DNA of 31,679 bases from a virus. The notes under the pieces were generated by a model, which was not told the origin of the DNA, ran no database searches, and saw nothing but the letters and a program-made list of their open reading frames with translations. The position numbers were made by a program, and so were the translations under genes. The stretch is from the IMG/VR virus record IMGVR_UViG_3300043399_000128, positions 1 to 31,679 of that record, one strand, 5' to 3'. Positions 17,434 to 24,841 of this stretch are shown in pieces. Position 1 is the stretch's first letter. Each line of letters opens with the position of its first letter.

Positions 17434-17507
17434 TCCTCCATGGTGTAATGGTAACACAACGGGCTTTGAACTCGTTATCGTTGGTTCGATTCCAACTGGG
17501 GGTGCCA
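17434..17507 (+). tRNA. tRNA-Gln (TTG)
   Basis: Cloverleaf with acceptor TCCTCCA/TGGGGGT, anticodon stem ACGGG/CTCGT, loop CTTTGAA (TTG), T-arm GTTGG TTCGATT CCAAC and encoded CCA. The weak 1-72 pair is typical of bacterial tRNA-Gln. The CCA bases also begin the long stem of the next element. Confidence 0.92.
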
Positions 17508-17608
17508 AACAAAAACATACTAACCAGTATCGTAGCAGTACTGCTAGGCTACAGGATTTTCGTGGGTTCGATCCCCACAACTAGGTTCGTTAGTATGTTT
17601 TTGTTTGG
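17505..17608 (+). ncRNA. tRNA-like RNA on a perfect 19-bp stem
   Basis: CAAACAAAAACATACTAAC (17506-17524) pairs perfectly with its complement at 17589-17607; C17505-G17608 extends it. Inside are a GTAGC/GCTAC hairpin and a true T-arm, GTGGG TTCGATC CCCAC. There is no complete acceptor or anticodon arm, so the long stem replaces the acceptor stem. It is not a terminator (no T run after the stem). Confidence 0.75.
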
Positions 17609-17630
17609 TAATCGTTCACAAGGAGAAGTT

Positions 17631-18265: not shown

Positions 18266-18334
18266 GTTTTAGGATTCTTTCAGCAAAATACAAAATTTCA
18301 AACTTATATCTTGAAAAGAAAGCGAATCCTGTTG
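18266..18334 (+). ncRNA. Y-like RNA element 1 (CAGCAA/GTTG family)
   Basis: Closing stem AGGATTC (18271-18277) / GAATCCT (18324-18330); CAGCAA at 18281-18286 and GTTG at 18331-18334. The interior of about 46 nt is A-rich with no tRNA pieces. It starts directly after the CCA of tRNA-Thr and ends 8 bases before tRNA-Glu. Confidence 0.7.
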
Positions 18335-18824: not shown

Positions 18825-18900
18825 GTTTTAGAGTAGGTTCAGCAACACATTAGAACACCAAACCGTTAATTTGTCATGTTCGACATAACTACTCTGTTGT
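18825..18900 (+). ncRNA. Y-like RNA element 2 (CAGCAA/GTTG family)
   Basis: Closing stem AGAGTAG (18830-18836) / CTACTCT (18889-18895); CAGCAA at 18840-18845 and GTTG at 18896-18899. The interior has a small ATGT/ACAT hairpin capped by TCG. It follows the CCA of tRNA-Pro directly. Confidence 0.7.
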
Positions 18901-19062: not shown

Positions 19063-19130
19063 TGTTTTAGGAAAGGTTCAGCAAACCAAAAGCTAACTTT
19101 GGATGTCTAGCGACAAAAACTTTCCTGTTG
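19063..19130 (+). ncRNA. Y-like RNA element 3 (CAGCAA/GTTG family)
   Basis: Closing stem AGGAAAG (19069-19075) / CTTTCCT (19120-19126); CAGCAA at 19079-19084 and GTTG at 19127-19130. The interior is about 44 nt. It lies between the CCA of tRNA-Asp and tRNA-Lys(CTT). Confidence 0.7.
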
Positions 19131-19314: not shown

Positions 19315-19443
19315 GGGGACATGATGTAATGGTAGCATAGCATAGCAAAAAGTCAATCCTGTCTGTAGGATTGTTTCCGCAACACTAACGCTCTAACTCT
19401 GTGAAAGTTCTTGTACGTGGTTCGAATCCCGTTGTCCCCACCA
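19315..19443 (+). tRNA. tRNA-like gene, anticodon GTG (His), with a ~54-nt internal insertion
   Basis: Acceptor GGGGACA/TGTCCCC, D-stem ATG/CAT, then about 54 extra bases containing the hairpin CAATCC/GGATTG, then stem AACT/AGTT with loop CTGTGAA (GTG), a T-arm with one bulged T, and encoded CCA. It has A73 and no G-1, unlike normal tRNA-His, so charging by HisRS is doubtful. Confidence 0.65.
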
Positions 19444-19604: not shown

Positions 19605-19714
19605 AGTTCTAGGTTAGTTACAGCAAAAATTAATGCACTGTCAATGGTTGACAAATTGCCTTCTAAGCAATCGTTTGTGGGTTCAAATCCCACTGCAAAA
19701 CCCCTAACCTGTTG
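19605..19714 (+). ncRNA. Y-like RNA element 4 with embedded tRNA-Arg-like body
   Basis: Closing stem AGGTTAG (19611-19617) / CTAACCT (19704-19710); CAGCAA at 19621-19626 and GTTG at 19711-19714. Inside are a D-like arm TGTC/GACA, an anticodon-like arm ATTGC CTTCTAA GCAAT (TCT) and a T-arm GTGGG TTCAAAT CCCAC. Only four acceptor-like pairs (TGCA/TGCA) exist and there is no CCA, so it is a tRNA mimic or decayed tRNA on the closing stem. Confidence 0.65.
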
Positions 19715-19796: not shown

Positions 19797-19906
19797 AGTT
19801 TTAGGCTACTTTCAGCAAACCAAAATTCATAGGTTCGATTCCTATATTATCCACCAGCCGAAAGGCACTTCGGATGATCGCCATTGGGGCATCAAGGTAG
19901 CCTGTT
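19797..19906 (+). ncRNA. Y-like RNA element 5 with permuted tRNA halves
   Basis: Closing stem AGGCTAC (19803-19809) / GTAGCCT (19897-19903); CAGCAA at 19813-19818 and GTTG at 19904-19907. The interior carries a tRNA 3' half first: T-arm ATAGG TTCGATT CCTAT, acceptor ATTATCC (19846-19852), A and CCA. A hairpin GCC-GAAA-GGC (19857-19866) follows, then GGATGAT (19872-19878), which pairs with ATTATCC through one G-U. The closing stem sits where the anticodon stem would be. Confidence 0.65.
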
Positions 19907-19912
19907 GTTTAT

Positions 19913-21450: not shown

Positions 21451-21676
21451 GTTTTTATACACATGACAATTTGTTGTCAGCAAGAGAAAGACACGCTAAG
21501 AAGATACTTCGAAGGTCAACTTAGTGTAAAAAGAATGAGGGTTCGAATCCCTGCACCAGTGGCTGGCATTCTGTCGAGTATCCCAAGTGACGTACCGACC
21601 TCCCTGTGCACATAACCGATGGGTGAATGGTATCAATAACGTGGTGATACATATAAGTTGTCAGTTGTATAAAAAT
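21451..21676 (+). ncRNA. ~225-nt structured RNA on a 16-bp closing stem
   Basis: TTTTTATACA (21452-21461) pairs with TGTATAAAAA (21666-21675); past a 2x2 loop, TGACAA (21464-21469) pairs with TTGTCA (21658-21663). Inside are TCAGCAAG near 21477, a T-arm AGGG TTCGAAT CCCT followed by CACCA within an AGAATG/CATTCT stem, a GTATCA/TGATAC hairpin, and AAGTGAC plus CGACCTCCCTGT as in the RNA at 17350. It starts right after the CCA of tRNA-Glu. Confidence 0.65.
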
Positions 21677-24497: not shown

Positions 24498-24522
24498 CTT
24501 TTATTCGGTTTTGTAGTATAAT
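24494..24522 (+). promoter_or_regulatory. Sigma70-type promoter of the upstream TROVE-region RNA
   Basis: -35 TTGACT (24494-24499), 17-bp spacer, -10 TATAAT (24517-24522). Confidence 0.85.
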
Positions 24523-24528
24523 AATTGT

Positions 24529-24810
24529 ATTGATTGGGATGATTGCAGCATTTTAAACAATACTGCCTAAAGAGTAGCCCCTACAGGAGGAAACACGGTA
24601 ACGTGTCAATTTGGTGGGCTAGGTTGGTTAAAGACTGTCGCGGACTCTTATCGCCTTGTGAACCCTAGTAGGATTCAGACAGTTATGCCCGAATGCATAC
24701 CAGTTGTCTACGCTATAATGTAGACCATGCCAGAGGACTGGACGATTTTCGCTGGGTTTCCAAAAGAGCGTGGTTTTAAGCAAACCAAATAACGTCCCGT
24801 TCATCCCGTT
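24529..24810 (+). ncRNA. ~280-nt structured RNA upstream of the TROVE gene
   Basis: Transcribed from the promoter at 24494. Stems: TAGCCC (24575-24580) / GGGCTA (24616-24621), enclosing ACACG-GTAA-CGTGT (24593-24606) with a GNRA tetraloop; ACTGTC (24634-24639) / GACAGT (24678-24683); GTCTAC/GTAGAC (24706-24725). No credible ORF. It ends before the next promoter at 24813. Confidence 0.7.
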
Positions 24811-24812
24811 GT

Positions 24813-24841
24813 TTGACTTTATTGTATGTGTGAAGTATAAT
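24813..24841 (+). promoter_or_regulatory. Sigma70-type promoter of Y-like element 6 and the TROVE gene
   Basis: -35 TTGACT (24813-24818), 17-bp spacer, -10 TATAAT (24836-24841). The element's closing stem begins about 5 bases after the expected start. Confidence 0.85.

Follow-up and report, generated by a model that had tools for sequence, protein, structure and literature searches.

Circularly permuted tRNA genes, in which the 3' half stands before the 5' half and the acceptor strands pair, are known from algae and archaea. YrlA (Rfam RF02553) runs from a T-arm through acceptor strand, loop, acceptor strand and UA to a D-arm, has no anticodon arm, is closed by a basal stem and is encoded near a gene for a Ro60-family protein. 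In the parts of the published work available here, YrlA is described as binding Rsr via the basal stem and PNPase via the tRNA-like domain, and as being modified by DusA and TruB (PMC8394870); the authors of another report suggest its tRNA-like domain as a possible competitive inhibitor of an anticodon nuclease (PMC7790460). The available part of a jumbo-phage survey records that some phages encode TROVE proteins, seen there as a platform with a tRNA-like partner (PMC7824862). The Class I RNAs of Dictyostelium (Rfam RF01414) have a 5' G, a covarying 6-bp stem, CAGCAA after the 5' strand and a 3' end CTGT; they are reported to be unique to dictyostelids, and their known direct binder is an RRM protein (the sections seen of PMC7919456). 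A DUSE promoter element and the RRM protein Rnp1A as partner belong to the eukaryotic traits of this class.

The element studied here, E5, lies in a 31.7-kb phage fragment (31,679 nucleotides), and this whole stretch of DNA is called the window below. E5 has the order of parts of YrlA, including the missing anticodon arm and the closing basal stem, and a gene for a Ro60-like protein is nearby in both cases. The basal stem of the phage elements differs from that of YrlA in having a CAGCAA handle, and sister RNAs of E5 carry anticodon stem-loops, for which we found no description among Y RNAs in the literature examined, parts of which were accessible. The handle itself resembles Class I RNA in the 5' G, the covarying 6-bp stem, the adjacent CAGCAA, the 3' CTGT and the variable middle. 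With circularly permuted tRNA genes E5 shares the 3'-before-5' order and the pairing of the acceptor strands, but its ends are a handle stem, it has no anticodon halves and joining its ends would not restore a full tRNA. No description of the handle RNA family was found in the literature covered, which left out most subscription papers, including the main ones on YrlA, so the family may already have been published.

E5 and its surroundings in the tRNA array

The window contains a dense tRNA array with 30 tRNAs called by ARAGORN, and CCA is encoded in 29 of them. No ordinary tRNA was called at the position of E5 by ARAGORN or at the Rfam tRNA gathering score, E5 itself scoring 14.9 bits with the Rfam model. 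The features of the window are listed in Table 1.

Table 1. Handle RNAs, parts of E5 and the Ro60-like gene in the window
Feature	Position	Strand	Evidence
E1, short handle RNA; anticodon-arm-like hairpin, loop CTTATAT, mismatched closing pair	18272..18334	+	Motif scan; Class I model 28 bits
E2, handle RNA with small T-loop-like hairpin (TGTTCGACA)	18831..18899	+	Motif scan, sequence
E3, short handle RNA	19070..19130	+	Motif scan
E4, tRNA body in normal order; anticodon loop CTTCTAA, reduced acceptor, without CCA	19612..19714	+	Motif scan; Rfam tRNA 41.1 bits at 19634-19698
E5, handle RNA with permuted tRNA domain lacking the anticodon arm	19804..19907	+	Motif scan, MFE fold, acceptor covariation
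E5 handle, 5' side: GGCTAC (19804-19809), TTT, CAGCAA (19813-19818)	19804..19818	+	Sequence; common to all six copies
E5 T-arm ATAGG-TTCGATT-CCTAT, 5 bp, loop TTCGATT	19829..19845	+	Sequence, MFE fold
E5 acceptor 3' strand ATTATCC (19846-19852), then ACCA (19853-19856)	19846..19856	+	Sequence
E5 linker closing the acceptor end; hairpin GCC-GAAA-GGC (19857-19866)	19857..19871	+	MFE fold
E5 acceptor 5' strand GGATGAT	19872..19878	+	Sequence, MFE fold
E5 D-arm-like hairpin GCC-ATTGG-GGC, three pairs	19880..19890	+	Sequence, MFE fold
E5 handle, 3' side: GTAGCC (19897-19902), tail TGTTG (19903-19907)	19897..19907	+	Sequence, motif scan
E6, large handle RNA; ends 41 nt upstream of the Ro-like start codon	24854..25003	+	Motif scan
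Ro60-like protein, TROVE-type helical ring and vWA, MIDAS kept; phrog_850, DUF2828/DUF7788	25045..26481	+	Family matches, AlphaFold2, fold comparison

All six copies in the window follow the pattern A-G-stem-NNN-CAGCAA ... stem-TGTTG, in which the 6-bp stems vary yet pair, and CAGCA...TGTTG is fixed. A pseudoknot between CAGCA and TGTTG is possible in all six copies. It was dropped as a family feature because the 3' tails differ elsewhere (CTTGT in Gram-positive types, CTGG in Alf5, CCAGT in Faith1).

An earlier note had read in E5, from the letters, the order T-arm, acceptor strand, A, CCA, GAAA-capped hairpin and GGATGAT, with the last able to pair with ATTATCC over seven positions. Sequence and MFE fold agree with both: the acceptor pairs at 7/7 positions, one of them a G-U, and every helix of E5 (T-arm, 7-bp acceptor, GAAA hairpin, D-arm-like hairpin and closing stem) is present in the MFE fold. 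The MFE is -30.8 kcal/mol (z -2.77), and none of 200 shuffles was equally stable. No anticodon hairpin was found in E5 between handle and T-arm or after the D-arm; that the closing stem of the family takes the place of the anticodon stem, as the earlier note had also proposed, is borne out by the sequence, the predicted fold and covariation.

Other structured stretches were seen in the array. At 17503-17610 a tRNA-like sequence has a T-arm closed by a stem of ~20 bp (CCAAACAAAAACATACTAAC ... GTTAGTATGTTTTTGTTTGG) and resembles a tRNA body with a very long stem on the acceptor side. A tRNA-like gene at 19315-19443, which ARAGORN did not call, has a CTGTGAA-type anticodon loop, CCA and an extra insert of ~50 nt with a hairpin. 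The long structured region at 21457-21672 has a closing stem of more than 10 bp, contains TCAGCAAG, a T-arm and CCA, and is possibly a larger handle RNA. Two strongly folded, apparently non-coding regions (24517-24820 and 26481-27052) flank E6 and the Ro-like gene. Near this gene, 27517-27945 encodes a protein with a match to the C-terminal domain of arginyl-tRNA-protein transferase (PF04377, 1.9e-6), a tRNA-using enzyme.

The Ro60-like protein and the family of handle RNAs

The protein encoded beside E6 has no match to Pfam TROVE; DUF2828 and DUF7788 were the only Pfam families above cut-off in a search with E up to 10. A search of PDB sequences with this protein alone gave no match, and a profile search gave weak Ro60/TROVE and vWA matches only. 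The fold comparison settled what these sequence searches left weak. With the AlphaFold2 model (pLDDT 77, pTM 0.73) as query, the top Foldseek matches were Ro60 structures, the first being that of Thermus phage phiLo (6.3e-8), and VIA-align 2 gave Z scores of 18.9 and 17.3 for Ro60 over ~400 residues, against ~10.5 and below for chains having the vWA domain only. The predicted fold of the protein is thus, over its whole length, that of Ro60/Rsr (PDB 9l5y from Thermus phage phiLo, 1yvr, 2nvo) with the MIDAS kept, whereas the protein belongs to DUF2828/DUF7788 and not to TROVE in Pfam and shows 12-17 percent identity in the structural matches. The MIDAS residues do not vary among 18 diverse homologues. 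In another collection, 676 of 50,697 phage records contain the Ro-like protein; when the Ro-like protein of the Enterococcus phage served as query, no contigs were matched.

The genes around the Ro-like gene were also compared. In Listeria phage LMTA-148 (L064, 5364-6515), tRNA splicing ligase (RtcB) genes are annotated downstream of it. Among 13 large relatives, RtcB was found in none and a protein of the RNA_ligase family (PF09414) in 6, so that an RNA-repair context is not general. A search for T4-type RNA ligase (PF09511) had no match anywhere, and the controls were likewise without match.

The handle motif was scanned in a first set of 51 viral contigs, collected with the protein encoded beside E6. 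With the strict motif, these 51 Ro-bearing contigs and the window gave 114 elements on the strand of the gene, 1 on the opposite strand and 1 in the reversed sequence. L023:3959 (minus strand) and L045:9949 (391 nt, running into coding sequence) were dropped before the counts, leaving 113 elements, many of which are closely related, so that counts of handle elements are not counts of independent events. When the strands were swapped between 27 distinct stems, full pairing was obtained in only 26 of 702 combinations. An element ends at most 400 nt upstream of 30 of 47 Ro-like genes. For the other 17 no strict element was found within that distance, several of the contigs beginning near the gene; this count omits the 5 of the 51 contigs that start inside or right at the gene (L029, L032, L042, L051 and L052).

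Loci with more distant Ro-like proteins, of the Gram-positive type and others, contained 59 elements, spread over 30 of the 69 loci; every one is on the strand of the gene, the reversed sequences had 0, and CTTGT and CTGT are examples of the tails. With a looser scan, 10 of the 14 named phage regions had elements (24 on the strand of the gene and 0 on the other, with 2 in the controls); the same scan was noisy on the first contig set, with 159 plus, 26 minus and 24 in controls. Elements stand beside the gene in Synechococcus BUCT-ZZ01, Bacillus vB_BcoS-136, Listeria LMTA-148, Enterococcus EfV12-phi1, Staphylococcus S-CoN_Ph9, Campylobacter F207, Felix-type Alf5 and mycobacteriophage Faith1, and the hosts of the phages with elements near the Ro-like gene include Gram-negatives, Firmicutes, mycobacteria and cyanobacteria. 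In Aeh1 and PHA46 the looser scan found no element within 2.5 kb of the gene. In the Erwinia jumbo phage pEa_SNUABM_47 (L125, 298500-307000), ten elements, several of them permuted, lie in an 8.5-kb tRNA region ~200 kb from the Ro-like gene.

The family was also sampled from the RNA side, with two short motif patterns and without use of the protein. One pattern matched 82 and the other 71 stretches of viral contigs, and together they gave 111 new distinct elements. A Ro-like gene is present in 10 of the 14 contigs of more than 100 kb in this sample, none of which came from the protein search (E <= 6.5e-87), compared with the 676 of 50,697 records in the other collection; the 4 without one may be fragments.

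In the available parts of a study of Listeria phage CKA15, a homologue of the Ro-like protein is reported in purified particles with 20 peptides, the authors suggest Y RNAs nearby, and three abundant non-coding regions are described (PMC12282133). We considered these regions as possible evidence of expression; the one for which the available parts give coordinates (26,236-26,727) differs from the three elements of this phage at 25,551-25,291. That region of the phage (L123) is a 492-nt stretch in which our scan found no handle motif, and it is counted among the most abundant phage RNAs (PMC12282133, available in part).

The handle carries exchangeable cargo. Besides permuted tRNAs there are tRNA bodies in normal order that lack a full acceptor, E4 being an example, and, most prominent among the sister RNAs of E5, single anticodon stem-loops. 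A further, large form stands just upstream of the Ro-like gene. Of 41 short elements, 28 reproduce exactly the anticodon loop of a tRNA gene that was called in the loci studied, whereas 200 shuffles gave 0.16 on average and never more than 2; 13 have no exact real anticodon loop, and the loop of E1 was not scored as exact. In the new sample from the RNA side, an exact real anticodon loop was found in 24 of 57 short elements (shuffle mean 0.16) and not in 33. U33 is kept in 34 of the 36 short elements whose hairpin has 5 bp or more and a loop of 7 nt. The loops include those of Thr UGU, which is the commonest, Asn GUU, Lys UUU, Ser GGA, Phe GAA and Tyr GUA.

Pairing of the permuted domain and likeness to known RNA families

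In a tRNA array every T-arm eventually precedes the start of another tRNA, and the junctions between neighbouring tRNAs were therefore taken as the natural null. In all loci collected at that stage, 496 junctions were compared, taking the 3' acceptor strand of each tRNA against the 5' strand of its successor; 1 of them paired at 7/7 and 20 at 6/7 or more. Within the window, 0 of 14 junctions reached 6 pairs. Thirty of 33 permuted candidates were kept, L011:587, L023:9800 and L082:4898 being excluded for want of a tRNA-like D-arm. Among the 24 distinct acceptor pairs of these elements, 161 of 168 positions were paired, and the best of 20,000 shuffles reached 113. Because this count had chosen the 5' strand by complementarity, the test was repeated with the D-arm located first and the acceptor ignored. 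In the tRNA register, at least 6/7 positions then paired in 15 of 23 elements, compared with 31 of 484 mismatched combinations, and of the 24 anchored permuted elements in the new sample from the RNA side, 15 paired at no fewer than six of the seven positions and 13 at all seven. A control that took the best stretch anywhere in another element reached at least 6/7 in 508 of 1028 cases; it was too permissive, and we rely on the tests with a fixed register. The pairing and the permuted order of E5 are confirmed as real and beyond chance.

An exact search of viral contigs for the T-arm and acceptor of E5 gave no match. Elements of the same subtype, with the T-arm directly after the handle and no anticodon arm, are present in L003, L004, L043, L044 and L196. 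The closest relatives of E5 (L003:1868 and L004:2175) have the acceptor ATTACTC/GAGTGAT, in which two compensatory changes preserve the pairing of GGATGAT with ATTATCC; the loss of this pairing in homologs, which the earlier note had named as a ground against its reading, was not what we observed. The further acceptors, among L043, L044 and L196, are ATTGCCA/TGGCAGC (6/7), TATTCGC/GCGAGTA and TTTTGCC/GGCAGAG. L209, with another hairpin before the T-arm, and L118, which pairs only by forced choice, are less clear candidates.

ACCA follows the acceptor strand in five of the six clear elements of this subtype (E5, L003, L004, L043 and L196) and is absent in L044:9903. In the permuted set as a whole CCA-like letters at this place are rare (5/30 elements, against 794/810 tRNAs of the same contig set). 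That CCA is kept in the subtype of E5 though rare in the whole set points to some role for it, so that processing deserves consideration, and cleavage at the acceptor junctions of E5 is possible.

The YrlA model was run across 19 records, and its best matches include permuted relatives with up to 45.2 bits; tRNA junctions reached up to ~29. No phage element attained the YrlA gathering score of 69, and E5 was unmatched at E up to 10, so that E5, although it probably works in the manner of a Y RNA, fails the formal YrlA test. The Class I consensus in Rfam is CCUUACAGCAA. With this model, a match was found in 17 of 18 phage records at E <= 1, the best having an E-value of 4.7e-6 and the best score being 33.9 bits, and in 8 of 14 named phages at E <= 0.05, with 6 of 9 matches lying within ~510 nt of the Ro-like gene; control genomes had matches in 7 of 14 at E <= 1 and in 4 of 14 at 0.05. 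The Class I gathering score of 41.5 was reached by no phage element, E5 having 16.2 bits. We know of no tRNA mimicry in Class I RNAs; the likeness of the handles may come from shared ancestry or from similar recognition by proteins.

Possible roles of the handle RNAs

That E5 is a Ro-associated tRNA-mimic RNA appears highly probable to us. The Ro60-fold gene nearby, the YrlA topology, the permuted relatives as best matches of the YrlA model and the acceptor covariation all give good support to the tRNA mimic of a Y RNA that the earlier note had foreseen. The best explanation overall, which we consider probable, is that E5 is a phage Y-type RNA by which the Ro protein presents tRNA mimics. The handle, consisting of the terminal stem and CAGCAA, would most likely be bound by the Ro60-like protein encoded ~5 kb downstream of E5, and would hold up a tRNA-shaped domain in permuted order with the handle replacing the anticodon stem. 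The handle RNAs are presumably made and stable, and most likely they are Ro-bound look-alikes of tRNA that engage enzymes acting on tRNA. Our first choice is that the look-alikes would occupy or distract host defences that attack tRNA, so that the phage's own tRNAs would be shielded. For mimics of elbow and acceptor such as E5, the alternative is that they might tether a tRNA-binding or RNA-processing enzyme to Ro, in the manner of bacterial Y RNA and PNPase.

A decoy or shield role of the handle RNAs is put forward tentatively, as a serious possibility. That the anticodon loops are exact speaks for decoys aimed at anticodon nucleases. UGU and UUU, which are among the frequent anticodons of the short elements, are also among those of the tRNAs that LshCas13a preferentially cuts (Lys UUU, Glu UUC, Gln UUG and Thr UGU; PMC11042736, available in part), and this was counted for the decoy reading. 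Because E5 has no anticodon, such a role leaves it not directly explained, and a tether or elbow-mimic role fits an element of elbow and acceptor only at least as well as a decoy. As in Deinococcus, the tRNA domain might bind PNPase or another nuclease to which Ro would feed structured RNA, the different tRNA pieces being for different partners. The topology that E5 shares with YrlA, described as binding Rsr and PNPase by its two parts (accessible portion of PMC8394870), suits this explanation, as do the Ro60 fold of the partner protein and the elbow and acceptor of E5, but the recurring single anticodon stem-loops with exact loops are left unexplained by it; a tether is possible if somewhat doubtful. 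We think it unlikely that the RNAs serve to attract or titrate tRNA-modifying enzymes (TruB or Dus on the elbow, anticodon-loop modifiers on the stem-loops). E5 does retain the T-loop TTCGATT and a D-like loop containing GG, and YrlA is modified by DusA and TruB (PMC8394870, in part), but modification could be a by-product of mimicry, and the many different anticodons indicate no single modifying enzyme.

The earlier note had also pointed to circularly permuted tRNA genes, whose transcript would be cut at the acceptor junctions and joined at its ends to give a working tRNA. E5 has the 3' half before the 5' half, a 7-bp acceptor and, like the other four clear elements of its subtype with ACCA, the letters expected after it. 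This origin finds no support in the rest of the evidence and is very unlikely, since E5 has neither an anticodon arm nor anticodon halves, its ends are the shared handle stem, the handle also closes elements without any T-arm or acceptor, CCA-like letters are found in so few permuted elements (5/30) compared with tRNAs (794/810), and the linkers of the permuted elements vary from 3 to 111 nt. An array rich in tRNA genes could also leave fragments with T-arms by recombination, and E5 might be such debris that folds by accident. The junction control (1/496 at 7/7), the covariation across phages of different bacterial hosts and the strand bias of 114 to 1 and 59 to 0 contradict this, and we give it hardly any credence.

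Returning to Ro-presented tRNA mimics, the observations can be joined in a wider reading, which we regard as speculative. Tailed phages of many bacterial groups would have a Ro60-RNA system in which one protein, a common handle and a swappable library of tRNA pieces together provide decoys for immune systems that target tRNA. The Class I RNAs of dictyostelids would share this handle and would then also be of Y type and be bound by a Ro protein of the DUF2828 type, and the CCA of the E5 subtype would permit cutting to a CCA-ended tRNA mimic with the Ro handle as its anticodon arm.

The handle RNAs would add a large modular class to the few Ro-associated RNAs, one in which the copying of tRNA by the exposed part extends to exact anticodon loops. 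Phages have been hypothesized to meet anticodon nucleases by carrying spare or mutated tRNAs (PMC10264068, available in part), and our results suggest how phages with big tRNA arrays might counter these nucleases beyond such tRNAs. Relatives with elements are accessible to laboratory work among Felix O1-type phages, Listeria P100-type phages and a mycobacteriophage. The likeness of the handles also provides a lead, open to testing, on what the dictyostelid Class I RNAs do.
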